A stretch of DNA of 64,000 nt. Source: Candidatus Accumulibacter aalborgensis. Lineage in GTDB: Bacteria > Pseudomonadota > Gammaproteobacteria > Burkholderiales > Rhodocyclaceae. Under the pieces are notes generated by a model. That model saw only the letters and a program-made list of their open reading frames with translations, was not told where the DNA came from and did not search any database. Shown here in pieces: positions 50 to 34,165 of this stretch (within the stretch, counting starts at the first letter, position 1; every line of letters starts with the position of its first letter). Position numbers and translations under genes: made by a program. The DNA lies in NCBI RefSeq assembly GCF_900089955.1, contig NZ_FLQX01000146.1, positions 1-64,000 of the forward strand, written 5' to 3'.

Positions 50-1297
50 CTAAACGATTACCTCTCGGCAGTATTCAGAGTCCTTGGAATTGTGGGACCA
101 GAAGAGTTGGAAAACGTCGGCAATATCAATTGCCTTTGCTAGGCCTGCTCTCCAGTTCTCACCCGAGCGGAGATTTTCAACGTCGATAAAAGTCTCATTC
201 CCTAAAGCCTTCTGTGCCAAATCGTATGATTCGGCAACTTCACTATCTTGCCTTGAGTACGACACAAAGATTTTTTGATAAAGAGTCGATGTCTGACTGG
301 ATAGCTTTGCCTGAGCAAGAGAATTTCCGCTCATCTTGGGCGATTTCGCCCCGACAATTTCTATTGCACAATTGCGTATCATAGCGATTTCTATCCCAGC
401 TACTTGAATTGAGAGATTAATTACGATCGTCTGTTCGGCTAATTCTTCTTTAGGTTCAAAAGAAAAAAGGAAGCGCTTATAACTCCCGTTCCATTTTTTT
501 GTTAATTCGCTTGGCTCAAAGCAAACATCATCACACTGGGGAACGACTGAAATTGGTGTGTTAAGCGCCAGTGGAACATTATGCTTAGCGCGATTCGGTT
601 TAGAACCTCCATCGCCAAGAGCATTCGAAAGCCCGCTTACATCGTTTTCTATGAGTGCTGTTAGCTTAGGCAAATGAGCATACACAACGAAGAGATAGTC
701 TTTATCACAAACTGCTGTTCGAGGGTAGTATGCAGTGAGTGCGACCGTATCGCCTGCAGTGAGTGCGGAATTTCCGAACCCAGCGCCCCCCATGTCTCGC
801 AATAGCAGTTTTACTCGCCAATTTATCCCTGCTAGCACGCTTGTGCCAATAGGTATATAAGATGCCACAAATCCAAGTGCTGCTCCTGCTACTCCTGCTA
901 CTCCTGCTGCTAGAGCATCACCAAAGGCTGAGCGCGCAATGCCCGCTATGGGGTGATGTTTTATTTTTCCCTCGTCAAGACGCTTTTCGTATAATCTTTG
1001 CAGCAGAATAACCAAACGTCTTCGGTGGACATTTTTCAGAAGAAGAGTGAGACGTTCCCACTCGTGTGGGATAATAGATCTGAGGATGGTCTCTTCTTCA
1101 ACGAATCTACTGGCGATGTCTAGCAACTCATCATCGTCGTAAACATCAGGTGGGAAGCGGGATAGTTGCATGACAAGGTGCGCTAGAGGCTCTCGATAGC
1201 CGCGAGGGTTAAGAAGGCACAGCGATCGGCAAACTGCTATCCTGTCTCTAGCTAAGTCACGATAGGATTCTAGGGAATGGATATTATCGTTACTCAT
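50..1297 (-). CDS. TIR-domain protein with truncated C-terminal TIR
   Basis: A 415-residue protein. It has a helical N-terminal half, a Gly/Ala-rich hydrophobic segment (about residues 128-160) that may insert in a membrane, a middle beta-rich part, and a C-terminal TIR-type start (KIFVSYSRQDSEVAE, about 342 on). TIR domains cleave NAD or act as signalling adaptors, often in anti-phage defence. The glutamate of YCRE (residue 412), in the place of the catalytic Glu of NADase TIRs, is kept, but only about 74 TIR residues remain of the usual 130 or so. Translation past the stop gives no TIR-like sequence. A GGGAG Shine-Dalgarno supports the ATG at 1297. The gene is clearly more AT-rich than its neighbours, which suggests transfer. 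Function is inferred; the truncation may have inactivated it. Confidence 0.75.
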   Translation of the reverse strand: MSNDNIHSLESYRDLARDRIAVCRSLCLLNPRGYREPLAHLVMQLSRFPPDVYDDDELLDIASRFVEEETILRSIIPHEWERLTLLLKNVHRRRLVILLQRLYEKRLDEGKIKHHPIAGIARSAFGDALAAGVAGVAGAALGFVASYIPIGTSVLAGINWRVKLLLRDMGGAGFGNSALTAGDTVALTAYYPRTAVCDKDYLFVVYAHLPKLTALIENDVSGLSNALGDGGSKPNRAKHNVPLALNTPISVVPQCDDVCFEPSELTKKWNGSYKRFLFSFEPKEELAEQTIVINLSIQVAGIEIAMIRNCAIEIVGAKSPKMSGNSLAQAKLSSQTSTLYQKIFVSYSRQDSEVAESYDLAQKALGNETFIDVENLRSGENWRAGLAKAIDIADVFQLFWSHNSKDSEYCREVIV

Positions 1298-1625: not shown

Positions 1626-2399
1626 CTAGATAGACATCAGATGCGTCACTCCGGTCTGCCTGAACAAGCGCCATTGGTCGCTGGGAATCGCCTGTTCGTC
1701 ACCGATCGCCAGCGCTGCCAGAATGCCTCCGTAGGGCGCATCGGGCAGGACCTCGAAGAACGATCGGCGTATTCGTTCGCGCCAGCGCTCGATGACATAG
1801 TCAGGCCGCAAAATGAAGTCGTCGAGACGTTCTGCGACAGCGCGCGGACGCACGTAACCCGTCGCCCGCAGGCCGCGCTCGAAGAGCCAGGCCTCGTAGT
1901 CGAAGCCATGCGGGTTGGCGTTGCCGTGCGGACGTTTGAGGCGAACGGTGAAGCGCCAGCGCTCACCCGGACGAAGCGCCAGCTTTTCGCGCCACTCGTC
2001 CTCGAGAACGCCGTGATACCAGGAGAGCATGATTCGTTGCGGCAGTCGCGCGCCAGGCGCGTCGACCGACTCGACGTCAAACTCGAAGCGCTCGCCGCGC
2101 TCGAAGGCATGCGGCAGCACGGCGACCACTCCGACGATCTGCACATCGCGGCCCTCCCACTCGGCTGGCAGGTAGTCTTGCAGGCGATATTCGGCGAGCA
2201 GCACCGCCCACGCCAGGCCGAGCAGTGCGCAGAGCAGCGGCGACGCCACTCGTCCAAGCACGTTCCGATGGCGTCCGGGCCAGAGCAGGAGCGAGAAAGC
2301 CATGGCCAGCAAGCCGGCGACGAGCGGCCACTCCGGTAGCGTCTCCTGCATCTGGATGAAGCCAACGCCAAGGGCGAAGGCAATGATACTGATGCGCAT
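1626..2399 (-). pseudogene. comEC: comEC/rec2 5' fragment (DNA uptake channel), truncated
   Basis: ComEC is the inner-membrane channel for single-stranded DNA in natural transformation, usually about 750-800 residues. These 257 residues match its N-terminal part: two membrane helices, then the DUF4131 OB-like domain with LRPGERWRFTVRLKRPHG and ANPHGFDYEAWLFERG. The frame stops at GVTHLMSI, exactly where the competence domain motif normally continues with SGLHV. The channel and the metallo-beta-lactamase-like domain are missing, so this copy cannot work alone. The missing part may lie left of the window if DNA was inserted here, or may be lost. Confidence 0.85.
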
Positions 2400-2602
2400 G
2401 AGGCATTAGACCTGAAAATCCGGGTCGAGCGCGCATTTCCTTGGGCTGGCGCAAGGTCGACTGTAGATGGTCTCTATTGTCCTGCACGGAGAGCTTGCCG
2501 GCGCTCATGCGCGAGGATTCTTTTGCTACCATGTACGCAGGGGTATCGGCGTGGTGCTCTGCCGACAAAACGACCACGTCCTGTTCAGTGGAAAGCACGA
2601 TC

Positions 2603-4783
2603 ATGATCAACGAATTGGGCCGCTTGTTGGCCGTAAACGACTATCTTCCCCACGGCTATTGCCTCAGTTGGTCGCCGCCGCTGGTGTTGACTTACGTGGT
2701 CAGCGACATCCTTATTTTCCTGGCGTATTTTTCCATGCCCTTGGCCATCGGCCACTTCGCACGGCGGCGCAAGGACTTTCCCTACCGCTGGCTTTTGTGG
2801 CTGTTCGCCGCCTTCATCATGGCCTGCGGTGCAACGCACCTGATGGGCGCTATCGTCCTGTGGCAGCCGATGTATGGCCTGGATGCGCTGCTCAAGGCGC
2901 TTACCGCCGTCATTTCGGTGGTCACCGCCTTCGCCCTTTGGCCCTTGCTGCCGCATGCCCTGAAATTGCCCAGCCCCGATCAGTTGCGGCAAGCCAACCG
3001 GGATTTGCAGAGCGAGATCGCCGAGCGCAGGCTCGTCGAGGAAGCCCTGAGGTTGGCGATGAAGGCGGCGGCGGATAGCGCGCAGGAAGATCGAATGCTG
3101 ATGGCGGCGATCGTCCAATCGTCCGGGGACGCCATCGTCGGTGCGACGCTGGACGGCATGATCACCAGTTGGAACCGCGCCGCCGAGGATATTTTCGGCT
3201 ACCGTGAGGAAGAAATCCTGGGGCACTCGATGCTTCTCCTCGTTCCTCCCGAACATCAGAACGAAGAGGAGCAGATGCTCGCTACGATCCGGCGTGGCGA
3301 ATCGATCAGGGATGTCGAGACGGTGCACGTCGCCAAAGACGGCCGCCGGATCGACGTTTCGCTCACCGTCTCGCCCATTCGGAACAAGGAGGGGCAGATC
3401 ATCGGCGGTTCGCAGATCGCCCGCGACATCACCCGGCGCAACATGGCGGAAGCAACGCTGAAAGAAAGTGAGTCGCTTTTGCGTGCCGTTTTTGACCACG
3501 CCGCCGTCGGTATCGCCCAGGTATCGACCACGGGAAGGTTTCTGCAAATCAATCAGGAGTATTGCCGGATCATCGCTTATTCCCGCGACGAGGCCCTGTC
3601 GCAAGGACTTACTTTTCAGCAGATCACTTTCCCGGAAGATCTGCCGACCGATCTGGAAAACATCAACGCGCTGCTTGACGGCAGCTCCGATCGCTACGCC
3701 CTGGAGAAGCGTTACGTTCGCAAGGATGGCGGCATTGTCTGGGCCAGCCTCTCGGTATATCTGTTGCGCAACGACAGCGGTGCGCCTCTGTACCTGATCA
3801 GCGCCGCACAGGACATCACCCGGCGCAAGCAGGCCGAAACGGAGCGGCGCTCCGCCCTCGAGCAACTGACCCGCAGCAACAGCACACTGATAGCGCTCAA
3901 CGAGAAGCTGGAGCAAACGCAGGGACAACTGCTGCAGTCCGAAAAAATGGCAGCCATCGGCCAGTTGGCCGCCGGCGTTGCGCACGAAATCAACAATCCC
4001 GTCGGCTTTGTCTATTCCAATCTCGGTTCGCTCAAGGAGTACCTGACCGGCCTGCTGCGACTGGTGGATGCCTACCACCGGGCAGCCAAAAGCTGTTCGC
4101 CCGGTGACCCGGTGCTGCAGGAAGCGGACCGTCTGGCGCGTGATTTTGACCTCGACTTCGTGCGTCACGATGCCATCGCGCTGCTCGCCGAGACGAAGGA
4201 TGGCCTGGAGCGGGTCAAGTGCATCGTCCGTGACATGCGTGAATTCTCGCATTCCGATGGAGCGGAGTGGCAGACCGTCGACCTCCACAAGTGCCTCGAC
4301 AGCACCCTGAATATGGTCTGGAACGAGCTGAAATACAGGGTCACCCTGGTCAAAGACTACGGCGATCTGCCTGATATTCACTGCTTGCCCTCGCAGTTGA
4401 GCCAGGTCTTCATGAACCTGCTGATCAACGCCGCTCATGCCATCGGCGAACGAGGGACCATTGCGCTGCGCACTGGCCGTGAGGCCGATACGGTCTGGGT
4501 CGAGGTCGAGGACTCCGGGGTCGGCATCTCGCCTGGCAACCTGGCGCATATTTTCGAGCCTTTCTTTACCACCAAGCCTGTAGGTAGCGGCACTGGCCTT
4601 GGCCTGGCGGTTTCTTACGGGATCATTCGGAAACACCAGGGGCATATCGACGTGCGCAGCGAACTCGGCCAGGGCACCACATTCCGCGTCATCTTGCCGA
4701 TTCACTCGCCGGGACCCGGCGCACCATCAACTGCCGCTGCGCCGATCCTGGCTCATCCGCAGGGGGACCCATCATGTCGATGA
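2603..4783 (+). CDS. Ethylene-receptor-like histidine kinase (EBD-PAS-PAS-HisKA-HATPase)
   Basis: A 726-residue sensor kinase. Its first about 120 residues form three membrane helices that match the ethylene-binding domain of plant ETR1: [15 protein letters not shown], then DFPYRW, then MACGATHL. The ETR1 copper ligands Cys65 and His69 correspond to Cys75 and His79 here. ETR1 Asp25, Tyr32 and Pro36 correspond to Asp35, Tyr42 and Pro46. Two PAS domains follow (about 165-285 and 290-415), then HisKA with the phosphorylated His461 in GVAHEINNP, and an HATPase domain (575-710, [12 protein letters not shown]). There is no receiver, so a separate regulator must exist. ATG 2603 was chosen over an upstream ATG because the homology begins there and a GGAAAG Shine-Dalgarno precedes it. 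The end overlaps the next gene by 10 bp. Ethylene binding is inferred from conserved residues; another copper-linked ligand is possible. Confidence 0.85.
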
Positions 4784-6546
4784 CTTTGAGAGATTCGCTG
4801 GCCCGCCATACGGTGGCGGAGTTGAAGGACCTGGTGAGCCACCTGCCGGGCGCCGGAAGCGCGGGCCGCAAGGACGAACTGGTTGAACGAATCGTCGGCA
4901 CGCTGCTCGGCCCTGGAGTGCAGGCCATCTGGTCGGCCCTCGACGAGACGCAGAAAGCTGCCGTCGCCGAGGCCGTGCATCACCCGCGCGGTGAGTATTC
5001 GGAGCGATGCTTTCGCGCCAGGTACCTGCGCGTGCCCTCGTTTCAGGTAGCTAGTGCAAAATCGTCCGGCTATTCCGCGAGCAAGAGCTCGGCCCTGGCC
5101 CTGTTCCTTCACTACTCGCCTGATGAATCTTGCTATTGCGTTCCGACCGACCTCCAGGCGCGTCTGCAGGCGTTCGTGTTGCCGCCCGCACCGTTGAGCC
5201 TCCAGAGTTCCGAAACCCTGGCCGAGGACGAAAGCTTGACGATCCGCCTGACCGAGCGTGAAGCCTTGCAGGAAGTGGCGGTGATGTTGCGCACCATCGA
5301 ACAGGCACGTGTTCTGGTCAGCGAGAAGACTTCGACGCCGGGCACCGCCACCCTGCGCTTGCTCAGCGAAAAACTGGCAGGGGGTGACTTTTACCCGTCG
5401 GTCGAGAAGAAGGAGCGATGGGGCCAGGAAATCGGCCCGATCAAGGCCTTTGCCTGGCCGATGTTGCTGCAGGCCGGCGGACTGGCGGTGCGTGTAGGAA
5501 CTCGCCTGGTAATCAGCCCGGCGGGCATCAAGGGCCTGAGCATGCCGTCGGCGGAAGTGCTGCGCGGGCTTTGGCGAAAGTGGCTCAAGACGACCCTGTT
5601 CGACGAATTCAGCCGCGTTGACACGATCAAGGGGCAGAACTCCAAGGGGCGTGTGATGACCGCTGCCGCTCCCCGGCGCGCGCCGATTGAAGAGACTTTG
5701 CGCGACTGCCCGGTCGGCCGCTGGATCACCTTCGACGACTTCTCTCGCTTCATGCGAGCGTCCGATCGGCACTTTGAGGTGACTCACGATACCTGGAAAC
5801 TCTACCTCTGCGAACGCCAGTACGGCAGCCTGGGTTTCAACGGATCGGGCGGCTGGAACATCCTGCAGGAACGCTACCTGCTGGCCGTCCTTTTTGAATA
5901 CGCGGCAACGCTCGGCCTGGTGGATGTGGCTTACCATGATCCCGCCGACGCCAGGAATGACTTCAGCGACCTGTGGGGCACCGACGAGCTGTCCTTTCTG
6001 AGTCGCTACGATGGCCTGACCGCCTTCCGCGTGACGCCCCTCGGCGCTTACCTGCTTGGCCTCGAGGCCGCCTACCGGCCGCTGGCCATCGTCAGCAGCG
6101 TGGCCTTGTCCGTGTCGCCCGACCTGCGGGTAAATGTCGTCGCTGGCGCCCTCGCTGCCGAGGAAGCGCTGCTGCTCGAAAGCTGGGCCGTGGCGGAGCA
6201 CGGAGGCTGGCGGCTGGATCGGGACAAAGCGCTGCTGGCCATGGAGAAAGGCCACGCCATCGCCGAATTGAAGGGCTTTCTGGCAAGCGCTCACGAACTG
6301 CCGCTGCCCGAGTCAGTGGATTCATTCCTCCAGTTCTGCGAGCGTAATGGCCAGGCGCTGAAGACGGTCGGCAGCGCCGTGCTGATCGAGTGCCGCGACA
6401 CCGACATCGCCGATGAAATTGCCGGTCGCCGGGAAACGGGCTCACTGTGTTTGCGCGCTGGGCCAAGAATGCTGGTCGTGCGCAGCGACCAGGTGGACAA
6501 GTTTCGCGAGCGGGTTCGGCTGCTTGGCTTCGGCATGATGTCGTGA
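4774..6546 (+). CDS. SAP-like/helicase-associated (XPB N-terminal-like) protein
   Basis: A 590-residue soluble protein. The N-terminus (TVAELKDLVSHL to DELVERIVGTLLG) resembles a SAP DNA-binding helix-extended-helix. The C-terminal about 150 residues (SPDLRVNVVAG, then LLAMEKGHAIAELKGFLAS, then LPLPESVDSFLQF) resemble the Helicase_C_3 / XPB-Ssl2 N-terminal domain found in helicase-associated proteins. No Walker motifs are visible, so it is not itself a helicase. A strong AGGGGG Shine-Dalgarno lies inside the kinase gene, and the start overlaps the kinase stop by 10 bp, so the two are translationally linked. Whether the kinase controls it is unknown. A role in DNA transactions is inferred from the domains. 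Confidence 0.65.
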   Translation: MSMTLRDSLARHTVAELKDLVSHLPGAGSAGRKDELVERIVGTLLGPGVQAIWSALDETQKAAVAEAVHHPRGEYSERCFRARYLRVPSFQVASAKSSGYSASKSSALALFLHYSPDESCYCVPTDLQARLQAFVLPPAPLSLQSSETLAEDESLTIRLTEREALQEVAVMLRTIEQARVLVSEKTSTPGTATLRLLSEKLAGGDFYPSVEKKERWGQEIGPIKAFAWPMLLQAGGLAVRVGTRLVISPAGIKGLSMPSAEVLRGLWRKWLKTTLFDEFSRVDTIKGQNSKGRVMTAAAPRRAPIEETLRDCPVGRWITFDDFSRFMRASDRHFEVTHDTWKLYLCERQYGSLGFNGSGGWNILQERYLLAVLFEYAATLGLVDVAYHDPADARNDFSDLWGTDELSFLSRYDGLTAFRVTPLGAYLLGLEAAYRPLAIVSSVALSVSPDLRVNVVAGALAAEEALLLESWAVAEHGGWRLDRDKALLAMEKGHAIAELKGFLASAHELPLPESVDSFLQFCERNGQALKTVGSAVLIECRDTDIADEIAGRRETGSLCLRAGPRMLVVRSDQVDKFRERVRLLGFGMMS

Positions 6547-6571
6547 GCGGAGGTGGGCAATACGGGTGCCG

Positions 6572-9049
6572 TCAGTCCTTCGTCTCCTGGCCGAAGCGCT
6601 CCTTCCACATGCGAAAAGCGTCGCGGATCTCGTTTCTGAGGTGTTCATCGTCCCAGGGCTTGTTGAGGTACTTATATACCGCCCCCCTGTTGATCGCGTC
6701 GGTGACGACGCTGATCTCTGAATAGCCTGAAAGGACCAGGCGTACCGTTCTCGGATAGAGGGTCTTGACGCGGGCGAGCAGTTCGACGCCGGTCATCATC
6801 GGCATTCGCTGGTCGGTGAGGATCACCTCGACTTCCTCGCGAGCCAGGATGGCAAATGCAGCCTCGGCGCTGCCGGCGGCGAGCACCCGGTAGCCTTCCC
6901 GACGCAACAGCCGGTTGAGTGCCGAAAGAATGTTGGGTTCGTCGTCGACCAACAGCAGCGTGGGCAGGGCATCGCTCTTTCCGGCGCCGAAGTGGAGGCG
7001 TTGACCGCGGTGGCGCAGGGTGGCGATTTCATCGGCCGGCAGGGGTCGCGAGAAGAAATAACCCTGCATCTCGTCGCAGTCAATGCGGCGCAGGTATTGC
7101 ATTTGTTCCTCGGTCTCGACGCCCTCGGCGAGGGTGACCTTGCCGAGCGTGTGCGACATGGCGACGATGGCCTGCACAATGGCGGCGTTGGTCGGATTGG
7201 TGGTCACGTCGCGGACAAAGGACTGGTCGATCTTGACCACGTCGATGGGAAAGCGCGACAGGTAGGCAAGCGAAGAATAGCCGGTACCGAAATCATCGAG
7301 CGACAGTCGCACGCCAATTTCCTTGAGGCGCTGGCTGGTGCTGGCGGCGACCGCCACATCGTGCATCATCGCTCCTTCGGTGATCTCGATCTCTAGCGCC
7401 CACGCGTCAATCCGGTGCGCGGCAAGTGCATCGCCGACGGTCAGGTGGAGATTGGCGAAGCGGAAATGACGCGCCGAGAGGTTGACGGCGACCTTGATCG
7501 ACGGCAGGCCGGCGTCCAGCCATTGCCGCATCTGGCGGCAGGCCTCGGCAAGGACCCATTCGCCGATGGCGATGATCAAGCCGCTTTCCTCGGCAGCCGG
7601 AATGAAGTGCCCGGGTAGGATGAGACCTTTTTCTGGATGCTGCCAGCGTACCAGCGCCTCGAGACCGATGACGGCTCCTGTCTGCAGGCTGACCTGCGGC
7701 TGGTAATGAAGCAGCAGTTGCTTGCTTGCCACAGCCTGGCGCAACGCTGCGAGCAACTCCTGGCGGCCAGAATCCTCGTTGGCCAGCAGCGCGTTGTAAT
7801 GGGCGACGCTATCGCCACCGGCGCGCTTGGCCATTTGTGTCGCACTGGCGGCGCGCGCCAGGAGCTCACCGGCCTGCTTGCCGTCGTCCGGAAAACACGC
7901 GATGCCGATCGACGAGCTGACCTCAAGCTCATGGTCATCGATGGTGAGGGGCGCGCGAATGGCCGCGAGCAGACGTTCCGAGACATCGAGGCCGTCGTCC
8001 AGCGACGGCGACTCAGGAACGGCGAACAGCAAGCCGAATTCGTCGTTACCGAGTCGGGCGACGATGTCGGCGTCGCGTACGGTGGCGCCAAGCCGACGTC
8101 CGATCTCGATCAGCAGGCGATCGGCGCATACGTGCCCGAGCAGACGGTTGACGTTCGCGAAGTCATCGATGTCGACGTGCACGACGGAGATTCCGGTCCC
8201 TTGATCGTCGGCGAGCAGGGCCAGTCGCGTCAGTTCGTTCATGAAGCCGGCACGGTTATGCAGTCCGGTGAGCGCATCGGTGCTCGTCAAAGCCTCCAGC
8301 CGATCTTCCAGTTCACGCTCTTTCGAGACTTCTTCGGCGATCGAGAAGTAGGAGCTGACGCATCCCTGGTCGTCGACGATCGGGGAGATGGTCATTCTTT
8401 GGCGATAGATCGCGCCGTCCTTGCGCTGATTGGTGAACTCGCCGGTCCACACCGTGCCGGCATGGAGCGCTGCCCACAACTCGCGGTAGGTCGCCTCGGG
8501 TGTCAGCCCGGAACGGAACAGGCGCGGCGAGCTGCCGATGAGATCCTCGGCGGAGTAGCCGCTGATCGCCGATGCTGCCGGATTCGCGAAGACGATCGAC
8601 AGGTGGGCGTCAGTGATGATGATCGACAGCGGGTTGTGCTGCGCGACGTCACGAAAAAGCGCCGCGGCCTTCATGTTCTGGTGCACGCGCGTCACATCGG
8701 CGCCCACCACGCAGATCGGCGCGCGGATGGCATCGCTACCGGCGTGGCGTTCGAGCGACCACGAAATTCGGAACCGTTGGCCGCCGCTCGCGGTTACCGT
8801 CGTCGCGAGGGCGCCGAGGTAGCCGTACGCACCCACCTCACTGACCAGGGCCAGGAACTCCTGCGACTCGGTTGCGTCCAGTTTCAGCAGATCCGCCAGC
8901 GGCCACTGGAAAACCTGATCGAGGCGGTCGTAGCCAAGCAGGCGCAGGCAGAAGGCATTGACATAGCAGACCGCGAGTTGCGCATCGACGCGAATGACCA
9001 GCAGGCCAAGCTCATCGTGGAGCGCTTCGTGTGCGCTTTCGCCGCTCAC
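6572..9049 (-). CDS. PAS-PAS-GGDEF-EAL-REC c-di-GMP protein
   Basis: An 825-residue protein. Its order is two PAS domains (about 1-245), GGDEF (255-415), EAL (430-680) and a C-terminal receiver (690-815). The GGDEF signature is changed to GNDEF, though the RxxD inhibitory site (RDAD, five residues upstream) is kept, so cyclase activity is doubtful. The EAL half keeps EALVRW, DDFGTGYSS, VKIDQSF and AEGVETEEQ, so it is probably an active c-di-GMP phosphodiesterase. The receiver (LLLVDDEPN, LTDQRMPMMTG, NKPWDD) sits at the C-terminus rather than the usual N-terminus. It starts with GTG inside a GTGA overlap with the hemerythrin stub. It is the last gene of a minus-strand signalling operon, convergent with the SAP gene and 25 bp from it. 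Confidence 0.9.
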   Translation of the reverse strand: MSGESAHEALHDELGLLVIRVDAQLAVCYVNAFCLRLLGYDRLDQVFQWPLADLLKLDATESQEFLALVSEVGAYGYLGALATTVTASGGQRFRISWSLERHAGSDAIRAPICVVGADVTRVHQNMKAAALFRDVAQHNPLSIIITDAHLSIVFANPAASAISGYSAEDLIGSSPRLFRSGLTPEATYRELWAALHAGTVWTGEFTNQRKDGAIYRQRMTISPIVDDQGCVSSYFSIAEEVSKERELEDRLEALTSTDALTGLHNRAGFMNELTRLALLADDQGTGISVVHVDIDDFANVNRLLGHVCADRLLIEIGRRLGATVRDADIVARLGNDEFGLLFAVPESPSLDDGLDVSERLLAAIRAPLTIDDHELEVSSSIGIACFPDDGKQAGELLARAASATQMAKRAGGDSVAHYNALLANEDSGRQELLAALRQAVASKQLLLHYQPQVSLQTGAVIGLEALVRWQHPEKGLILPGHFIPAAEESGLIIAIGEWVLAEACRQMRQWLDAGLPSIKVAVNLSARHFRFANLHLTVGDALAAHRIDAWALEIEITEGAMMHDVAVAASTSQRLKEIGVRLSLDDFGTGYSSLAYLSRFPIDVVKIDQSFVRDVTTNPTNAAIVQAIVAMSHTLGKVTLAEGVETEEQMQYLRRIDCDEMQGYFFSRPLPADEIATLRHRGQRLHFGAGKSDALPTLLLVDDEPNILSALNRLLRREGYRVLAAGSAEAAFAILAREEVEVILTDQRMPMMTGVELLARVKTLYPRTVRLVLSGYSEISVVTDAINRGAVYKYLNKPWDDEHLRNEIRDAFRMWKERFGQETKD

Positions 9050-9213
9050 GGGGTACCTCCTGCCTTGCCTGCTGCGGCGTCGGCGCGAAGCGTGGCTTCG
9101 CCGCTGGCGAGCAGCAGCGCGATCGTAGTGCGCAGATCGACGAGTCCCCGATGCTGGCGATCGACGAATTCGATAGCGGTGACGAAGTGTTCACTCCAGG
9201 GCATGAAAGCCAT
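9046..9213 (-). CDS. Truncated bacteriohemerythrin (helix A only)
   Basis: A 55-residue product beginning MAFMPWSEHFVTAIEFVDRQ and then HRGLVDL, the typical first helix of a bacteriohemerythrin (aromatic W, then the D-x-QH iron-ligand motif). Full hemerythrins are about 130 residues and need ligands from all four helices, so this cannot hold a normal di-iron centre. ATG 9213 has an AAGGAA Shine-Dalgarno at good spacing. Its stop overlaps the GTG start of the following gene (GTGA), so translation of the stub probably feeds ribosomes to that gene. It may be a deletion remnant of a once complete sensor. Confidence 0.6.
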   Translation of the reverse strand: MAFMPWSEHFVTAIEFVDRQHRGLVDLRTTIALLLASGEATLRADAAAGKAGGTP

Positions 9214-9292: not shown

Positions 9293-10948
9293 TCAGGCCG
9301 GATTACTCGGCAGAATCACCCTGAAAATCGAACCCTTACCGAATTCGCTGCTGACCTCGATATGGCCACCGTGCTGATGCACTATCCCGTAGGCCAGCGA
9401 GAGCCCCAGTCCGGTGCCTTTGCCGACTGGCTTGGTGGTGAAGAACGGGTCAAAGATCTTCTCCAGATGTTCGGGCTTGATACCCTTGCCGGTATCTGCC
9501 ACTTCTACCCAGACGCTCTCCCGATCATGGCCGGTACGCACCGTGATGCTGCCGTGGCTGTCGATCGCATGCGCCGCATTGAGCAGCAGGTTCATGAACA
9601 CCTGATTGAGTTGCGAAGGAAAACAGCGGATTTGGGCGATGTGGCCATACTCCCTGACCACTTCGGCCTTGTCCTTGAGTTCGTTCGACACCACATTCAG
9701 CGTGCTCTCGATCCCCGCTTCCAGATCGGCCCACTCGGGCTCCGAACCGTCCACGCGAGAGAATTCCTTCAGGTCCTGCACGATGCGTTTCACACGCTGC
9801 AAGCCGTCCACCGACTCGGTCAGCAGGTTGCCAATATCTTCGCGCAAAAACGCGGCATCGATTTCGTTCTTCAGCCGGGTGATATCGTCGAGCACGCCAC
9901 TGGCCAGCGATCCTTCCACTTTCTCGTATGCCGCGAGCAGCCGGAAGATATCCTCGGCATAGCGCTGCATGGTCCCGAGATTGGAGTTGACGAATCCTAT
10001 CGGGTTATTGATCTCGTGCGCCACGCCGGCCGCCAGTTGACCAATCGAGGCCATTTTTTCCGATTGCAGCAGCTTATGGTGGGTGTCTTCGAGTTTGTCG
10101 ATCAGTTCTTCCTGATGCAGCTTCTCGGCCTCCAGAGTCGCGTTGGCGGTCTGCAGGTCGGCCGTACGTTCCCTTACTCTTTCCTCCAGCCTGGCGCGTG
10201 AATCGCGCAGCGCCTCCTCGGCCCGCGTCCTTTCGGTGATATCGTTATAGCCGAAAACTCGGCCGACGATGCGCTCGCCGAGATACTGCGGGCGCGATCT
10301 GCATTCGAAAACCCGGGCATCCTTGAGCCGAAAGAGGTCTTCGGTTTCGCTGCTGTCGGCAATCGCTTGCAAGCGTGTGCGACAGGCATCGTCCTCAACG
10401 ACCTGCTGCACCATGAATTCGAGGATCGCCGAATCGTCCCGGTCGAGCAGCAGGTCCTCGGGGATCTCCCACATGCTGCTGAACAGACGGTTCATGCTGG
10501 CGATTCTGCCCTGCCAATCGATCACCAGGATGCCATTGCCGGTCGATTCCAGCGTTGCCCGCAGTTGCGACAGGGTTTGTTCCAGAGCGTCCTCGACCTT
10601 GCGCTCGTGCTGAATATCCCTCGCCTGGACAAGCAACAGGGGCGTCCCGTGATGATCAAGCATGCGAACGGATTTCGTGACCGTCAGCAGGGAACCATCG
10701 GCGCAAAGATAGAGCCCCTCCTGGCCGTCAATGTCCTGATACTGACCGTTGCGAACCTCTTCCCAATAGAAGACGTCCTGCAACGAGCTTTCGATGTCCG
10801 TGATGGTCATCGCCGCCAGTTCCTCGCTGGCATAGCCGAGTGTCTGCTCGACGACCCGATTGGCCACCAGGATGCGCAAATGGCCGGGCTCAACCAGGAG
10901 CATCATGTACGGGCTGTAATTCAGCATCAATTGCTCAAGGCTGCTCAT
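9293..10948 (-). CDS. PAS-PAS histidine kinase
   Basis: A 551-residue cytoplasmic sensor kinase with no membrane segment. It has PAS 1 (about 10-115), PAS 2 (125-240), a coiled coil (245-290), HisKA with His311 in [13 protein letters not shown], and HATPase ([14 protein letters not shown]). The HisKA/HATPase block is nearly the same as in the kinases at 2603, 14817 and 25452, so they are paralogues with different sensory ends. The start overlaps the stop of the HD-GYP gene (ATGA), giving translational coupling. It probably feeds the receiver domains encoded upstream in the same operon. Confidence 0.9.
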
Positions 10949-12219
10949 CGGGCGAATGTTTCCTGTCCGGGCTGGCCGGCATCAAAATAATAGCTGACCC
11001 GCTTGCGTGGACTGAGGTAGTTGTAAACTTCCCCCGGCACTTGTGCCGGCCTGACCGGCTTGGCAATATTGACGTGCGTTTCGCGCGCCAGGTCGACCAG
11101 CAGCGCTTCATGTTGGGGAATCTTCGCGTCGTAGATCAGGATCATCGGTTTCATCGGCTTGTCCGTATTGACGGTCGCGACCATGCCGATGACGCCATTG
11201 GAGAGTTGCACGATCGTCCCTGGCGGATAGACGCCAAGACAACGGATGACCACCTTCAGCAGCGTTGGATCGAATTTGCCGCGCAGTCTGGCGAACATCA
11301 CCGAAAGCGCCTCGTGTGGCGTCAGGGCATCGCCGATATTGAGCGGATTGCACAGCTCATCGTAATGGTTGGCAATGGCCACGATGCGCGAGAGCAAGCC
11401 GATCGACTCGCCCATGAGCTTGTCGGGATAACCCGTACCATCATAGGATTCGTGGTGCGCTCGGATGATGGCCAGGATGGCCGGGGCAAACTTCAGTTGC
11501 TGGCCGATGGCCACGCCGTACTGACAATGCATCTCGTACAAGTGGCGCTCGGCCGGCGTCAGTGCGTCCGTTTTCCTGAGAATCCTGCTTGGGATATCCC
11601 GCCTCCCGATATCGTGAAACAGCGCCCCCATGCCCAGTGCGCCAACCATCTCTTGCGGCAGGTGGAGTTCGCGCGCCATCATCAGCGACAGCATGGTGAC
11701 GTTCAAGGCATGAAAATACAATTCCTCACCGCCCATCTTGTCGCCCATGACATGAATCGCAAGTTCCGGAGCACACAGGATCGACTCGGCAATCTGGGTC
11801 ACCAGTTCCGTCGCCTGGCGTACGGCCTCCGTCGGCCGGGCCAGCAGATTCTTCTCGATGTCGCGAATGGTTTGCGCTGAATTGATAAAGGCATTCTCGA
11901 TGCGCGCTGCAGTCTCGCGCTGCGCCTTGATCTGTTCCGTCATGACGTTCTTGGCGGCGAGCGTCGACGTGATATCCGGCCTGGCTTCGGCCGGCGGATC
12001 GGTCGGCAGCGCCGTCTGCGGTGGCGGAGCGATGTCGCTCAGCGCCGGGTCGTAGCGAACGGTCTTCAGCCCCAGGCTGCGGATGGTCGCGATCTGCTCC
12101 GTGGAACTGATCTTGAAACGGCTGAAGGGGAAGGGATGTTTCAGCCAACCGAGTTCGAGGTCGACATACATACCGACCTGGAGTTGATCGACGGTGATCC
12201 GGGGAAGATCGGGAATCAT
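10945..12219 (-). CDS. DUF3391-HD-GYP c-di-GMP phosphodiesterase
   Basis: A 424-residue protein. The N-terminal DUF3391 domain (ITVDQLQVGMYVDLELGWLK) is followed by an HD-GYP phosphodiesterase domain with GALFHDIGRRDIP, the HHESYDGTGYP motif and a typical C-terminal tail. HD-GYP enzymes linearise c-di-GMP through a two- or three-iron centre. The catalytic HD, the later HH and the intact GYP motif all suggest activity. It overlaps the PAS kinase gene by 4 bp and follows the small response regulator by about 120 bp in the same direction. Confidence 0.92.
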   Translation of the reverse strand: MIPDLPRITVDQLQVGMYVDLELGWLKHPFPFSRFKISSTEQIATIRSLGLKTVRYDPALSDIAPPPQTALPTDPPAEARPDITSTLAAKNVMTEQIKAQRETAARIENAFINSAQTIRDIEKNLLARPTEAVRQATELVTQIAESILCAPELAIHVMGDKMGGEELYFHALNVTMLSLMMARELHLPQEMVGALGMGALFHDIGRRDIPSRILRKTDALTPAERHLYEMHCQYGVAIGQQLKFAPAILAIIRAHHESYDGTGYPDKLMGESIGLLSRIVAIANHYDELCNPLNIGDALTPHEALSVMFARLRGKFDPTLLKVVIRCLGVYPPGTIVQLSNGVIGMVATVNTDKPMKPMILIYDAKIPQHEALLVDLARETHVNIAKPVRPAQVPGEVYNYLSPRKRVSYYFDAGQPGQETFAR

Positions 12220-12341: not shown

Positions 12342-12905
12342 TCAGTCGTCGACCAGCGTTTCGTCAATCAGCACAGAGCCGTCTGGCCCCCAATTGACGT
12401 AGGTGATGCCGGGTTCCTCGGCTTCGAGCCGGCAACGTTCTACTTGCTCCGCGGTCAGGCTGCCCTGCGCAAGGCGCATCTGGTTGGCGAGATGCTGGTT
12501 TTCCAGCGTCGCGTCGCGCAGGGCAAGCGCCTGGCCGATGGCCGAGATCAGCTCGTAGTCGTTCCAGGGTTTGGCGATGAAGCGGGTGATCTGCGCCTCG
12601 TTGATCGCCCGGATGAGCCCATTGAGATCGGCGTAGCCGGAGAGAATCAGGCGTGGCGCACCCGGCTGCAGCGCGCGAAACGCCTGCAGGAACTGAACGC
12701 CGTCCATTCCCGGCATGCGGTAGTCGGACAGGACCAGGTCATACGCTGTGTAGCGCGCTTTCTTGAGCGCCTCGAACGGATCTTCGCAGCAATCGACATC
12801 AAACCGGTCGCTGCGCCCGGCGGCGCTGCCGGGCGCGAGCAGCAGCAGCCGACGCAACGACTTGAGGATCGAACTTTCGTCATCAACGATCAGGATGCGG
12901 CTCAT
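12342..12905 (-). CDS. Response regulator, single receiver with C-terminal extension
   Basis: A 187-residue protein: a receiver domain (MSRILIVDDESS, phospho-acceptor Asp61 in LVLSDYRMPGMDG, Lys in AKPWNDYE) plus about 50 residues with no known output domain. The KPWxD motif and the pattern of its last helix match the receivers of the neighbouring HD-GYP and EAL proteins. ATG 12905 is set by a GGAGG Shine-Dalgarno; the longer open frame upstream overlaps the next gene and is not needed. It may relay or compete for phosphoryl groups inside this operon. Confidence 0.88.
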   Translation of the reverse strand: MSRILIVDDESSILKSLRRLLLLAPGSAAGRSDRFDVDCCEDPFEALKKARYTAYDLVLSDYRMPGMDGVQFLQAFRALQPGAPRLILSGYADLNGLIRAINEAQITRFIAKPWNDYELISAIGQALALRDATLENQHLANQMRLAQGSLTAEQVERCRLEAEEPGITYVNWGPDGSVLIDETLVDD

Positions 12906-12927
12906 GGGGACCTCCGATACGGGTTCG

Positions 12928-14268
12928 TCACTTGCGGTCGGGGCGGATGTGCAGTGGCGGAATCGGACCTTCGCGCCGCGCGTATTCCTGAATCTGGCGG
13001 ATGACAACAGCGTCGAGCAGGTAGTCGGCGGCAAGCAGCAAAGCGCCGTCGCGGCCGGCGAGGTCACGCGCAAGGGCCATCCCCGGCCTGAGTTCTGCGG
13101 CCGTGACCAGGATATCGTGCTGGCTTTCGTGAGAGGCTCCGCCGAGCATGTCGAGGAAGGCGTCGACCACACTCGCGTCGTAGCGCTTGCCGCGCGCCTT
13201 GACGAGCATGCCCTTGGCCTCGCTTTCGCTCAAGCGCTTGTCGTAGAGGATGCCGCACTGCAAACCGTCGTAATCGTTGGCCACCGCAAGGATGCGCGCA
13301 GCCAGCGGAATGCTCAGTCCCTGTCGTTTTTCAGGCCAGCCTTCGCCGTCGAAGCGCTCGTGATGCAAGCGGATGGTCAAGGCAACGTCCTTGAGCTGGT
13401 CGAGTGGCATCAAGGCCTGCTCGCCGGCCAGGGCGTGTTTGCGGTAGCGACTGAGTTCTTCGCCGGCCATACGTGATACGGGCTTGGTCAGCAACTCGTC
13501 GGCAAATCCGATCTTGCCGATGTCGTGTAGCAGGCCGGCAAGAAAAATGTCCTGCTGTTCCCGCCCGTCCATGCCCATTTTCTCGGCTGTGCGGCGAGCC
13601 AGGTCGGCAACCCGGCGTGAATGACCGGCGACCGCGCCACCACGCATCTCGATCAGCCCGGAGAACATCTTGACCGAGACGATGAAGTTCTGCTTGAGCT
13701 GCTGGTTGGCCACGCTGAGGAGACTATTGACGTCTTGAATCTCGGCGGTACGTTCACGGACGCGTTGTTCGAGATCGGTGTTGAGACGCCACAACTCGTC
13801 GTTCTGCGTCTGCGTCAGTGCCAGCAGACGGATGTTCTCGGCCTTCAAGCGCGAGCGCTCGAGCGCGTCGCGGATGGTCAGCAGCAGATCGTTGTCGTCC
13901 CACGGCTTGGCGATGTAGCGGTAGATCTCGCCGCGGTTGATGGCAGCAATCGTCGAAGTGACGTCCGAATGTCCGGTGAGCAGAATGCGCGACACCTGCG
14001 GCCAGCGCTTGCGAGCCTCTTCGAGGAAGCGTGCGCCGTCCATTTCCGGCATGCGCATGTCGGAAATGATGAGGTCGATGTCTTCGCGAGCGAGAACCTC
14101 GAGGCCAGCGGCGCCGCTTTCGGCGGTGTGTACCCGGTAGCCACTGGGGCGTAGTAAACGGCGCAGCGAAGACAGGATGCTCGCCTCGTCGTCGACCAGC
14201 AGGAGCGAAGGTGGCCGGTCGGTTGCCGGCAAGCTTGCGCCGGGATTCGGGGCTGTGGAATCGGTCAT
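12928..14268 (-). CDS. REC-HD-GYP response regulator
   Basis: A 446-residue protein: receiver (about 20-140, phospho-acceptor Asp70 in LIISDMRMPEMDG, AKPWDD), a coiled linker (150-190), and an HD-GYP domain (LLHDIGKIGFADELL, then HHERFDGEGWPEKRQG). The GYP signature reads GWP, a variant that may change c-di-GMP handling or partner binding, while the HD and HH metal ligands are present. ATG 14268 is in an ATGA overlap with the small membrane gene upstream. Such RpfG-like proteins hydrolyse c-di-GMP when phosphorylated by a cognate kinase, here perhaps the PAS kinases nearby. Confidence 0.9.
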   Translation of the reverse strand: MTDSTAPNPGASLPATDRPPSLLLVDDEASILSSLRRLLRPSGYRVHTAESGAAGLEVLAREDIDLIISDMRMPEMDGARFLEEARKRWPQVSRILLTGHSDVTSTIAAINRGEIYRYIAKPWDDNDLLLTIRDALERSRLKAENIRLLALTQTQNDELWRLNTDLEQRVRERTAEIQDVNSLLSVANQQLKQNFIVSVKMFSGLIEMRGGAVAGHSRRVADLARRTAEKMGMDGREQQDIFLAGLLHDIGKIGFADELLTKPVSRMAGEELSRYRKHALAGEQALMPLDQLKDVALTIRLHHERFDGEGWPEKRQGLSIPLAARILAVANDYDGLQCGILYDKRLSESEAKGMLVKARGKRYDASVVDAFLDMLGGASHESQHDILVTAAELRPGMALARDLAGRDGALLLAADYLLDAVVIRQIQEYARREGPIPPLHIRPDRK

Positions 14269-14498
14269 GGTGAACTCACTACGCTGGGGTGGCTGCCGTC
14301 TATCGGCAGGATGATCCGGTATTCGCTTGCCAGCACATCCCGCTTGAACAGGGCCGCTGCGCCAAGGACCAGGCCCATGCTCAGGATGCCGCCGCCAAGA
14401 TAGCGCGAGAAGGCCTTGGCGCGCGCCTTCGCAGCCTGCGACACAGCGCGGCGCTGCAGCGATTGCCGTGGCGATGCAGACGGGCATGGCTCAGACAT
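14265..14498 (-). CDS. Small single-pass membrane protein
   Basis: A 77-residue hypothetical: basic N-terminus (SLQRRAVSQAAKARAKAFSR), one membrane helix (YLGGGILSMGLVLGAAALF), then a short tail. It overlaps the REC-HD-GYP start by 4 bp (ATGA), the main reason to believe it is translated. No family was recognised. The tail EYRIILPIDG recalls the last strand of histidine-kinase ATPase domains, which could be chance or a remnant. It would be the first gene of the minus-strand operon. Confidence 0.45.
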   Translation of the reverse strand: MSEPCPSASPRQSLQRRAVSQAAKARAKAFSRYLGGGILSMGLVLGAAALFKRDVLASEYRIILPIDGSHPSVVSSP

Positions 14499-14816
14499 GG
14501 TTCCAAGGTTCCCTGGTCGGCTCGCGCGCCCCGGCAGGCGGCAGCGGCTGCCGGCGCGCTGTGCCGGACGCGAACGCGTGATGGTGCTTGAGCAGCCAAG
14601 GATAAGCCCGCCGCAGCAAAAAGGCCAGAGCACGGCCCACCATTGCTTGATTTATCCCCGTCGCGTAGTATCCATCAGGAGGTATTTCGCGGGCGCCATG
14701 ATGAGGGTGTTGGTAACCGTATCCTGCCAGAGATGGCCGCTCGTGTTTTCCGCTATCGCCGCCAGCCACGGAAAAATCAGCCCTGCAATACGCGTTGTGC
14801 AGGAGGCTCACCTGAA
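14499..14816. other. Divergent intergenic region
   Basis: It separates the minus-strand signalling operon from the plus-strand kinase and must hold promoters for both. No clear sigma-70 boxes, hairpin or RNA element stands out. An AGGAGG Shine-Dalgarno at 14801-14806 sets the start of the kinase gene. Confidence 0.5.
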
Positions 14817-16904
14817 TTGGAAAGCACTACCCCAACGTTGAAGCTGAGTATCCGCCAAGGATTGCTGCTCTTCATCACGCTCGCCAGCCTGATCCTGGCC
14901 GGCGTCGCCGGTCTCGGCGTGTGGGGCACATGGCGCGGTCAGGAGAGTTTGCGCGAGGTGTTGACCGAGGAAGTCTACGCAACGCAGCAGCTTGTCGAGG
15001 TCTACACGCAACTCACCAGCATACCCGCGCGGATGTACGGGGTGCTCAACGGCGATACCAGCGCCGTCGGTGCTCGCAGCCACCTCGTCGGCGCCCGACG
15101 TGACCTTGCGCTCGGCTGGCGACGCTATCGCGCAGCGCTCGCCGACGGAGCAGACGAAGAAGAGAAGACGCTGATCGCGGCGATTGATCCGCCGTTGAGC
15201 GCTTTGCCGGCTTTGCTGGACCGCATCGACCATCTCCTTGCTGTCGACGACCGGCCGGCGATCGCTGCGCTCCTCAGCCAGGAGTGGTGGGACATCCGGT
15301 TGCAGGTCATGGCGCCGCTCAGCCGGCTGATCGAGCTTGAGCAAAGCCACGTGGAGGTGGCCTACGCTGTGGCGCAAGGCGTCTACCGGCAGACATTGAT
15401 TGGCCTGGGGCTGCTGCTCGCCGCCGGCATGGCGATCTTCTTCGGTTTTTCACGCCGCATCTTCGACCATGTGATGACCAGGCTCGGCGTGATCGAGGAC
15501 GCTTTGACGCGGATCGCCGCCGGCGACCTCGAAACGCGCATCGGCGGCAGCCACAGCGGCGAGTTCGGGCGCATCGTCGGCGCGCTCGACCGGACGGTCA
15601 GCAGTCTGCGCGCGGACCGCCAGGCGTTGGAGATCTTGCAGCAAGGCCAGGCCTCGATCCTCGAATCGATGGCCGAGGGATTGTACGGCACCGACGCCGA
15701 GGGCAGAATCACTTACGCCAATGCGGCGGCGGAACACCTGCTCGGCTGGAGCGCTGGCGAAATGCGCGGCCAGTTCGCGCACCAGATGTTCCACCACACG
15801 CGAGCCGACGGCACGCCTTATCCGGTCGAGGATTGCCCGATACATCGCGCCTGCTTGACCGGGCAGCCGTGCCGTTCGGACGACGAGTTGTTCTGGCGCC
15901 GGGACGGCAGTAGCTTCCCGGTCGAAATGGCCGGCGCGCGGATCGGCACCCCCGAGCGCACCGTCGGCAGCGTCGTCGTTTTTCGCGACGTCACCGATCA
16001 GCGCTCGGCCAAACTGGCGCTACGCGCCAACGTCGAGCGACTCACGGCGATCAACCGTCGCCTGGAGGAAACACAAAGCCAGCTCCTGCAGTCGGAGAAA
16101 ATGGCGTCGATCGGTCAACTGGCGGCTGGGGTGGCGCACGAGATCAACAACCCCGTGGCCTTCGTCAATGCCAACCTCAGCAGTCTCAGGTGCGAAGTTG
16201 GCGACCTGCTGCGAGTTCTCGACGCCTACCAGGCGGCCGACCCGATCCTCGCGGCGCATCCGGCAGTGATGAAAACGATTGCCGCGGCCAGAGACGCCGC
16301 CGAACTCGACTACCTGCGGGCGGACATAGGCGCACTGATCGATGAATCGCTCGACGGCATGCAACGCGTCCGCAAGATCGTCCAGGACCTCAAGGACTTC
16401 TCGCGCGTCGGCACGGCCGAGTGGCAGTTCGCCGACCTCGAGGACGGACTGGACAGTACGCTCAACATTGTCTGGAACGAAGTCAAGTACAAGGCACTGG
16501 TGGAGAAGGAGTACGCCGGCTTGCCCAAGGTCGAATGCATCGCGGCGCAGATCCACCAGGTCTTCATGAACCTTCTGGTCAACGCTGCCCAGGCGATCGA
16601 AAGCCACGGAACCATCACGCTGCGTACGGGTTTCGCTGGCGCCGAGGTCTGGGTCGAGGTCGAGGACACCGGCCAGGGAATTCCGGCGCATGAATTGAGC
16701 CGCATCTTCGATCCCTTCTTTACCACCAAGCCGGTCGGCAAGGGAACCGGGCTCGGCTTGTCGTTGGCTTACAGCATTGCGCAGCGACACCGGGGGAGGA
16801 TCGAAGTCAGCAGTCAAGTCGGTGTTGGTTCACGTTTTCGTCTTGTGCTGCCGGCCATGCGGGTGCAGGCCGAGGTGTCGGCCAGCGGTGAAGCCACGGG
16901 CTGA
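14817..16904 (+). CDS. Membrane histidine kinase (HAMP-PAS-HisKA-HATPase)
   Basis: A 695-residue sensor kinase: TM1 (LLLFITLASLILAGVAGLG, about 12-32), a helical periplasmic domain (about 35-190), TM2 (LIGLGLLLAAGMAIFFGF), HAMP (ending GRIVGALDRTVSSL), PAS (about 280-400, with a Cys-containing insert), HisKA with His441 in [13 protein letters not shown], and HATPase ([14 protein letters not shown]). An unusual TTG start at 14817 is proposed because a perfect AGGAGG lies 10 bp before it and the homology starts right after; the upstream ATG at 14643 would add 58 residues without family features. It is divergent from the c-di-GMP operon, whose receivers may be its targets. Confidence 0.88.
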   Translation: MESTTPTLKLSIRQGLLLFITLASLILAGVAGLGVWGTWRGQESLREVLTEEVYATQQLVEVYTQLTSIPARMYGVLNGDTSAVGARSHLVGARRDLALGWRRYRAALADGADEEEKTLIAAIDPPLSALPALLDRIDHLLAVDDRPAIAALLSQEWWDIRLQVMAPLSRLIELEQSHVEVAYAVAQGVYRQTLIGLGLLLAAGMAIFFGFSRRIFDHVMTRLGVIEDALTRIAAGDLETRIGGSHSGEFGRIVGALDRTVSSLRADRQALEILQQGQASILESMAEGLYGTDAEGRITYANAAAEHLLGWSAGEMRGQFAHQMFHHTRADGTPYPVEDCPIHRACLTGQPCRSDDELFWRRDGSSFPVEMAGARIGTPERTVGSVVVFRDVTDQRSAKLALRANVERLTAINRRLEETQSQLLQSEKMASIGQLAAGVAHEINNPVAFVNANLSSLRCEVGDLLRVLDAYQAADPILAAHPAVMKTIAAARDAAELDYLRADIGALIDESLDGMQRVRKIVQDLKDFSRVGTAEWQFADLEDGLDSTLNIVWNEVKYKALVEKEYAGLPKVECIAAQIHQVFMNLLVNAAQAIESHGTITLRTGFAGAEVWVEVEDTGQGIPAHELSRIFDPFFTTKPVGKGTGLGLSLAYSIAQRHRGRIEVSSQVGVGSRFRLVLPAMRVQAEVSASGEATG

Positions 16905-16957: not shown

Positions 16958-17335
16958 ATCGCCCTGGCTCAGGAGCACAATCTTCTCGCGCAGGGTGCGC
17001 ACTTCGGGAATCCGATCGAGACCCAGTAGCTTGCCCCACTCGCCAGGCGCACACGAGCGCAGGGACTCGACCGATTCCAGTCGCGCCAAGGCCATGAAGG
17101 CGATCAACATCAACATACCGTCGATCCCGTAGTAACCCGGTGGCAGCGTCAGCTCCTCACCTCCTTCGAGCAGCCCCACTGCCAATAAGGCGGGTAGCGC
17201 AAACAGCACCCCTCCCCGCGGCACGTCGACGGCCGCCTGGAAGTGGGGAGCGACCGCATTCAGCCCGCCCACGCTGGCCGCCACCCGGGCTTCCAGCTTC
17301 CGGTTCGGCACGAACCGACCGCCAGCGGTCACGAC
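16958..17335 (-). pseudogene. Transposase N-terminal remnant
   Basis: About 125 codons resemble the start of a large putative transposase family: FVPNRKLEARVAASVGGLN, then LPPGYYGIDGMLMLIAFMAL, then CAPGEWGKLLGLDRIPEVRT. The match ends at LLSQGD, after which the frame reads through unrelated sequence antisense to the kinase end. No catalytic DDE part is left. It touches the 3' end of the diguanylate cyclase gene, so an element once inserted just behind that gene. The family assignment is from memory of similar proteins and is moderate. Confidence 0.6.
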
Positions 17336-18321
17336 TCTGCCGATGCCGCTTGCGCCGCCACGCAGACGCGGTTGCGGCCGCCTGCCTTGGCCGCGTAGAG
17401 AGCGAGGTCGGCTTCCCCGATGAGCAAGTCCGGGCCCGTTGCCAGGTCGGGAACGCAAGTCGCCACGCCCAGGCTGAGCGTCACCCAGGGGCCAACATCA
17501 CTGGTCGCATGCGGCAATTCCAGAGCCTCGACTTTGCCCCGTAGACGGTCCGCCACGGAGTGCGCACACTCAAGGTCTGTGCTCGGCAGGATGACGGCAA
17601 ATTCCTCGCCGCCGTATCGCGCCGGCAGGTCGGCGGCACGGAAGATCTGCCGCTGCAGGATTCCGGCCACCGCCTTGAGACAACCATCGCCGCCCTGGTG
17701 TCCGTAGTGGTCGTTGTAGCGCTTGAACTGGTCCACGTCGGCCATGATCAGCGATAGCGCTTCGCCCCGGCGCCGGCAGCGGCTCCACTCGACCTGCAAT
17801 CTCTCGTCAAAGCTGCGCCGATTGGCAATTCCGGTCAAGCCATCGCAAGTGGCGAGTTGTTGCAGGGCGAGCTGGGCATTCTTCTGCTCGGTCATGTCGC
17901 GCAGAGTTTCGACGACGGCAATCAGTTGGCCGTCGTCGGCGTAGATCGGGCCGGCGTCGACGGCCAGATAGAGGCGGCAACCCAGCCGGGGCATGAGGCA
18001 CCAGGTCTCGGCCCTGAGTCCGTAGCCGTTCTCGGAGGGTTCGGTATGCTCAGAGTAGAGCGTTGCCAGTTCGGCAATTCGGCCCTGGGCGAGAACGTCA
18101 GCCAGACAGAGCCGGGGCTCTGAATAAAAGGCTTGCCAGTGGTTGGTGGTACCGACGACATCGGCCGCCGGCACGCCGGTCAGGCGTTCGCAGGCATGGT
18201 TCCAGATGATTACCTGACCACTGGGGTCGAGGACGAAGGTCGGGACGACCAGGTGCTGCATGAGGCTGACGGCGAAAGCACGTTGCCGGGCCCGAACTGC
18301 CGATTTCTTGTCGGTCATCAA
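17329..18321 (-). CDS. PAS-GGDEF diguanylate cyclase
   Basis: A 330-residue protein: PAS (about 20-145, with [13 protein letters not shown]) and GGDEF (155-315). The active site is intact ([12 protein letters not shown]) and the RxxD inhibitory site (RAAD) lies exactly five residues before it, so the enzyme should make c-di-GMP and be product-inhibited. It starts with ATG ATG; the ATGA at 18318-18321 overlaps the lolD stop, so it is co-translated with the Lol transporter genes. That pairing is unusual. The PAS subtype is like the second PAS of the kinase at 25452. Confidence 0.93.
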
Positions 18322-34163: not shown

Positions 34164-34165
34164 GC

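Follow-up and report, generated by a model that had tools for sequence, protein, structure and literature searches.

A sensor kinase with an ETR1-type ethylene-binding domain and a methionine-type pocket in Candidatus Accumulibacter aalborgensis

The locus described here raises the question of whether Candidatus Accumulibacter aalborgensis, probably a betaproteobacterium, carries a copper-dependent ethylene receptor and, if so, to which output such a receptor would report. The window (the whole stretch of DNA that was analysed, 64,000 nucleotides) contains a gene for a histidine kinase, which a sequence-only reading had interpreted as a sensor of ethylene or of another copper-bound signal. ETR1-like sensors of this kind are already known in bacteria. 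Putative ethylene receptors were found in many proteobacteria in work that also reports AzoEtr1 as a proven receptor (PMC11819568), and the novelty first seen in a receptor from a non-photosynthetic proteobacterium has to be given up. In the open-access literature, no report was found of an Accumulibacter with an ethylene receptor. What is new here is the fixed change in the binding pocket, the chimeric build of the protein, and its genomic setting.

The ETR1-like membrane domain proposed by the sequence-only reading was borne out by profile search. The ethylene-binding domain (EBD) profile PF25487 matched the N-terminal 162 amino acids alone with an E-value of 7.5e-38 and the whole 726-amino-acid protein with 1.1e-36 (hmmscan), scoring 125–129 bits against a cut-off of 27 and covering profile positions 2–97 of 97. 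None of the 14 control genomes was matched by this profile, which makes a chance match very unlikely, and the host genome (4.7 Mb, 181 contigs) holds a single copy. An AlphaFold2 model built from a 36-sequence alignment predicted long helices at residues 25–55, 62–85, and 91–112 (mean pLDDT of 88.3, block pLDDT of 88–97), consistent with three N-terminal transmembrane helices. The EBD profile found no PDB sequence at E ≤ 1, a Foldseek search of the PDB with the EBD model returned no fold at E ≤ 0.001, and no unrelated membrane domain with a better fit to the N-terminus turned up in either search. Rfam and tRNA scans of the whole window gave no matches.

The two PAS domains and the kinase that had also been proposed were found. 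The PAS and HATPase_c domains scored above their cut-offs, and the HisKA region remained below its own (20.3 versus 26.9 bits). The phospho-acceptor histidine H461 lies inside an HEINNP box, the N box starts at residue 605, and the G boxes start at 637 and 663; the protein thus has the phospho-acceptor His, N box, and G boxes of a two-component kinase. The product of this reading frame is almost certainly a member of the ETR1-type EBD family. We classed it from its sequence as an EBD-family sensor kinase rather than as a proven ethylene receptor, because six of the seven ETR1 binding residues are kept.

Table 1. Features of the window; positions are counted from the first nucleotide of the 64,000-nucleotide stretch.
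Feature	Position	Strand	Basis and remarks
comEC 5' fragment, left edge of block	1626..2399	-	DUF4131/Competence (Pfam); 257 codons
EBD-PAS-PAS-histidine kinase	2603..4783	+	ATG start at 2603, stop at 4783; 726 aa
Ethylene-binding domain (EBD; ETR1_N, PF25487)	2681..2968	+	Residues 27-122; three membrane helices (predicted)
Met45 codon, ETR1 Ile35 position, mark of Met-type clade	2735..2737	+	EBD alignment, tree
PAS 1	3101..3430	+	Residues 167-276, best stretch; Pfam score above cut-off
PAS 2	3542..3802	+	Residues 314-400, best stretch; Pfam score above cut-off
HisKA-like region, phospho-acceptor His461 (codon 3983-3985)	3959..4090	+	Residues 453-496; Pfam score below cut-off
HATPase_c catalytic domain	4388..4702	+	Residues 596-700; E 2.3e-25, above cut-off
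Helicase_C_3-like protein	4774..6546	+	Below Pfam cut-off; overlaps kinase gene end by 10 bases
PAS-GGDEF-EAL-REC protein, candidate c-di-GMP output	6572..9049	-	Pfam
PAS histidine kinase without EBD	9293..10948	-	Pfam; best kinase match of EBD kinase (54%)
DUF3391/HD-GYP protein, candidate c-di-GMP phosphodiesterase	10945..12219	-	Pfam
Receiver (REC) protein	12342..13172	-	Pfam
REC-HD-GYP response regulator, best candidate partner	12928..14487	-	Pfam
HAMP-PAS histidine kinase without EBD	14643..16904	+	Pfam; kinase 54% to EBD kinase
PAS-GGDEF protein, final block gene before lolD	17329..18321	-	Pfam
Copper region: CusRS-like pair, two metal P-type ATPases, CopB, multicopper oxidase	33417-52059		Pfam

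The window EBD contains D35, Y42, P46, I72, C75, H79, and K98, and all the residues listed by the sequence-only reading (Cys75, His79, Asp35, Tyr42, and Pro46) were present. The numbering of ETR1 is taken to map onto the window protein with a constant offset of 10, and D25 and Y32 presumably complete the seven binding residues of ETR1. On this numbering, the copper-site residues Cys65, His69, and Asp25 are found as C75, H79, and D35, and the position of Ile35 is occupied by Met45, a residue that had gone unmentioned; the set of seven residues that ETR1 requires for ethylene binding is accordingly incomplete. In published accounts, I35, P36, I62, C65, and H69 were named as essential in ETR1 (PMC6586836), D25 was assigned to the copper site together with C65 and H69 (PMC12643061), and a conserved Asp-Lys salt bridge was described (PMC13012798). 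The conserved Lys98, whose column holds Lys in 87 out of 104 EBD rows, is likely the partner of the Asp. In the Ile35 column of the same rows, Ile was found 75 times and Met 25 times, with Leu, Val, Thr, and a gap once each; when methanotroph sequences were added and duplicates removed, Met occurred in 29 out of 210 rows, one of them partial. Natural variants were also observed at other ethylene residues, with Asp25 replaced by Asn, Glu, or Gly and Pro36 by Ser or Ala in several EBDs (L118, L133, L096, L148, L121, L132, and others).

A maximum-likelihood tree was computed from 103 rows chosen from the 210, with column 45 and the partial sequence L090 omitted. A branch supported at 99/96 set all 28 Met rows apart, one change being sufficient, in a tree of 126 columns only whose bootstrap was not quite settled and in which many other forks stay open. 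The clade spans beta- and gammaproteobacteria as well as Magnetococcales, with records from Rhodocyclaceae/Rhodocyclales, Sterolibacterium, Rhodoferax, Polaromonas, Methylobacter, Methylococcaceae, Magnetococcales, and unassigned proteobacteria; these named records are metagenome bins, in which single contigs may be misplaced. By crossing class borders, the clade points to horizontal transfer of the Met-type EBD.

The change from Ile35 to Met could abolish ethylene binding; overall, an ethylene reading of the EBD kinase appears likely. The alternatives weighed below carry odds that overlap and do not sum to one. The strongest, a real though lesser possibility that overlaps with our preferred explanation, is that the protein is an ordinary bacterial ethylene receptor like AzoEtr1 in which Met45 reflects neutral drift. 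In favor of this, Ile to Met is a conservative replacement, the 130-bit score lies within the range of 98–147 bits of the order's other over-cut-off members, and AzoEtr1 is a precedent for ethylene binding by proteobacterial EBDs. However, Met is retained throughout a clade of 28 rows that spans several lineages, and states other than Ile and Met make up only four of the 104 rows.

Less probable is that the Met-type domain does not serve ethylene but senses Cu(I) or copper redox state or, via copper, CO, acetylene, or oxygen. The retention of Cys, His, and Asp alongside the replacement of Ile35 by Met, a usual Cu(I) ligand in general, would fit such a role, as would the mixed hosts of the Met clade; against this, six of the seven ethylene residues are unchanged and the same domain serves ethylene in plants and in at least two bacteria. 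The window's copper genes speak against copper sensing as well, the nearest being located about 29 kb from the kinase gene, beyond genes that we take, by eye, to be lolC, lolD, and recJ. The sequence-only reading had cited these copper-handling genes in its favor, a support that this distance removes. A link between them and the EBD kinase was rejected, given the same distance and the housekeeping genes in between.

To locate the origin of its parts, the protein was cut and each part compared with 123 proteins, comprising EBD proteins (some cut at the locus end) and the window's own proteins. Identity to Met-type proteins of other species reached 84% for the EBD part (residues 1–125) and 64% for PAS 1 with its linker (126–285); the latter was 49–64% identical in 14 of the 17 Met-type proteins and 29–40% in L062, L074, and L076. 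The kinase part (411–726) was 52–54% identical over 288–295 residues (294–311 bits) to three kinases of the window that lack an EBD, versus 127 bits and 32% identity for the best EBD protein. No EBD protein exceeded 37.4% over at least 100 residues of this part, and the best kinase match elsewhere in the host genus was 55%. As the EBD and PAS 1 resemble foreign EBD proteins and the kinase resembles local non-EBD kinases, a sensor module was joined to a local kinase type, and on these alignments the window protein is a chimera with a modular sensor.

The gene lies in a block between comEC and lolD. In the window, the spacing between these two genes is 15.9 kb (2441–18317) and is filled with signalling genes; in ten loci chosen from nine of the 27 relatives in the host genus, it is 2.16–2.29 kb. 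In relatives where the fetched stretch reaches that far, lolC and recJ come after lolD. None of the block proteins had a match between comEC and lolD in the ten loci at E ≤ 1e-20, and an EBD was found in one out of 28 genomes of the genus, that of the host alone. The comEC fragment occupies the genus's usual comEC site, and a longer copy with an open frame of 774 and 90% identity to the fragment is present on another host contig. In two other genomes (G012 and G021), an additional comEC copy stands next to a lolD and has a short frame (279). At the window's left end (50–1297, minus strand), we observed a protein with a C-terminal TIR domain, whose frame ends within the domain (profile positions 1–70 of 122). 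Beside lolC (20521–21132, minus strand), a protein of 203 amino acids had no Pfam match at E 0.001 and appeared, by eye, ADP-ribosyltransferase-like.

The Helicase_C_3-like gene that overlaps the kinase gene is probably an incidental neighbour. A functional link was rejected: matches to it, partial in some cases, occur in 12 other genus genomes, none of which contains an EBD, and of three loci inspected by eye, two (L102 and L103) have it near an Hsp70-like ORF. This gene is also the next one after the kinase gene, which has no adjoining receiver gene; receiver genes adjoin the EBD kinase in L065, L068, and L075 and, by reading, in L070. Because of this difference, the choice of a partner receiver for the window kinase is a guess. 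An EBD kinase gene with a receiver gene was also seen near a Cas9 gene on a conjugative-type plasmid of Novosphingobium (p2, L165). Since the gene is present in a single genome of the genus, the host lineage can do without it. It is nevertheless improbable that the protein is a vestigial or orphan chimera, with an EBD accidentally fused to a local kinase and its signalling lost, as the restriction to one genome, the chimeric kinase, the missing adjoining receiver, and the truncated comEC alongside might suggest, for the reading frame stays open throughout its 726 codons, the kinase retains its catalytic boxes, the ORF has a GC3 of 0.76 like that of the neighbours, and the EBD shares 84% identity with that of a relative.

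HD-GYP genes encode, by family, c-di-GMP phosphodiesterases. Near Met-type EBD genes, we found eight HD-GYP matches in 7 of the 17 loci (228 kb) versus 0.81 expected on the basis of whole-genome PF13487 counts (17 genomes; P = 2e-6), a count that includes the near relatives L075 and L077 and was made with a search profile seeded partly from three Met-type loci. Without these three seeding loci, four matches were found versus 0.62 expected (P = 0.004). Two matches fell within the window's first 20 kb, versus 0.04 expected. No HD-GYP gene was found near 28 Ile-type loci (438 kb) or near 15 same-genus loci without an EBD (255 kb), zeros that prove little because the respective expectations were only 0.15 (calculated for 18 named Ile-type loci) and about 0.5, most Ile-type hosts having few HD-GYP genes. 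Moreover, L075 has an EBD histidine kinase gene that overlaps a receiver gene, with an HD gene next in line; in L062, a hybrid kinase gene stands between those for an EBD-PAS protein and a REC-HD-GYP protein. In Azospirillum brasilense, ethylene was reported to lower c-di-GMP and biofilm formation and to lead to polyhydroxybutyrate (PMC11819568). We infer c-di-GMP as the output of the window kinase, with chances that are evenly balanced.

Taken together, we favor a model in which the Met-type EBD, Cu(I), and ethylene or another pi-ligand would act through His461 and a receiver of the block on c-di-GMP, and give it as a whole a probability of about 0.5. The EBD would dimerise in the inner membrane and hold Cu(I) at Cys75 and His79; Cu(I) binding itself is very probable. 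The copper would bind ethylene, which is slightly favored as the natural ligand, or a different small pi-ligand (acetylene or CO, for example), and Met45 would tune affinity or selectivity. Ligand binding would then alter autophosphorylation at His461. In plant ETR1, kinase activity is inhibited by ethylene, and indirect evidence points the same way for SynEtr1. The phosphate would pass to a receiver, either unlinked or nearby, for which the REC-HD-GYP and EAL-REC proteins of the block are the likeliest candidates, so that the ligand level might set c-di-GMP and thereby the attachment or storage state.

Of the genomes examined, an EBD over the cut-off was found in 25 of 399 for the order, 12 of 369 for the class, and 28 of 398 for the phylum. 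In the family of genome G681, it was found in 88 out of 151 genomes (loci L201–L310; Fisher P of about 2e-44 against the class sample, uncorrected for phylogeny, the class sample including both the host and G681), with six matches in one genome (G1257). We regard this family as methanotrophs because pmoB was present in 136 of the 151 genomes and two of them (G1283 and G1245) share their pmoB places with the Methylobacter records L069 and L070. Among 110 methanotroph-type rows, which are the best-scoring matches plus a few others rather than a random draw, 95 had Ile, 10 had Met, and five had another letter; with these counts, Met45 as a methanotroph form was rejected. Among EBD-bearing genomes, pmoB was found in 5 out of 39 (5 of 23 Met-type and 0 of 16 Ile-type entries, G889 and the genome of L076 possibly being the same), so that Met45 is not a methanotroph marker. 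The host genome gave no pmoB match and is, by this test, not that of a methanotroph.

Ethylene strongly inhibits methane oxidation and poisons gammaproteobacterial methanotrophs by way of their own methane monooxygenase. A recent comparison of methanotrophs with respect to ethylene, whose main text contains neither 'receptor' nor 'histidine kinase', names a MEDS-domain regulator in an epoxide gene cluster (PMC11507031). This regulator provides a rival route of response to ethylene in the species concerned. In the open-access literature, no report of an ethylene receptor or ethylene-sensing kinase in methanotrophs was found, although an earlier mention is possible. We tentatively propose, as a doubtful extension, that EBD copper receptors are standard in gammaproteobacterial methanotrophs and that the Met-type, retuned in affinity or ligand, was transferred among some of these and other proteobacteria including the host, reporting gas to c-di-GMP. 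The EBD count in methanotrophs may matter more than the window protein itself: should these EBDs bind ethylene, it becomes directly testable whether methane oxidisers possess a sensing layer for hydrocarbon gases. In addition, a pocket change fixed in a clade makes the role of the residue testable on a natural series.

Among known systems, AzoEtr1 of Azospirillum brasilense Sp7 is similar in being a proteobacterial protein with an N-terminal EBD, a PAS domain, and a histidine kinase, and it was shown to bind ethylene (PMC11819568). The EBD from the AzoEtr1 strain (L162) is 50% identical to the window EBD over residues 14–132 and has all seven residues, whereas the window protein has Met45. AzoEtr1 was described as a protein of 525 amino acids with one PAS and an overlapping receiver gene (PMC11819568), in contrast to the two PAS domains, other kinase type, and lack of an adjoining receiver in the window. 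SynEtr1 of Synechocystis (slr1212), compared by its description, has an N-terminal EBD and a histidine-kinase output to a response regulator, and is described as binding ethylene, with ethylene altering biofilm and phototaxis; it carries a cyanobacteriochrome light domain where the window protein has PAS. Plant ETR1, the namesake of the Pfam domain, shares the Cys, His, and Asp of the copper site on the above numbering but has Ile35 where the window protein has Met45, and no GAF match was found in the latter. Plant receptors were stated to signal mainly without histidine kinase activity (PMC11819568).

Also close are the Met-type proteins L061–L077 (from Rhodocyclales, Polaromonas, Rhodoferax, Methylobacter, and Magnetococcales), with an EBD region 69–84% identical to that of the window, the same Met, and, in most of the 17 as given above, a similar first PAS. 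They differ from the window protein in their outputs, which include classical and hybrid histidine kinases, HPt, and GGDEF-EAL. Ten relatives were scanned and exhibited a histidine kinase (L064, L067, L068, and L069), HK-REC (L061 and L076), HK-REC-HPt (L074), GGDEF-EAL (L063), or PAS only (L062 and L073), the frame of L073 stopping inside the PAS and possibly being broken. Some of these Met-type relatives have an adjoining receiver gene or a nearby HD-GYP gene.
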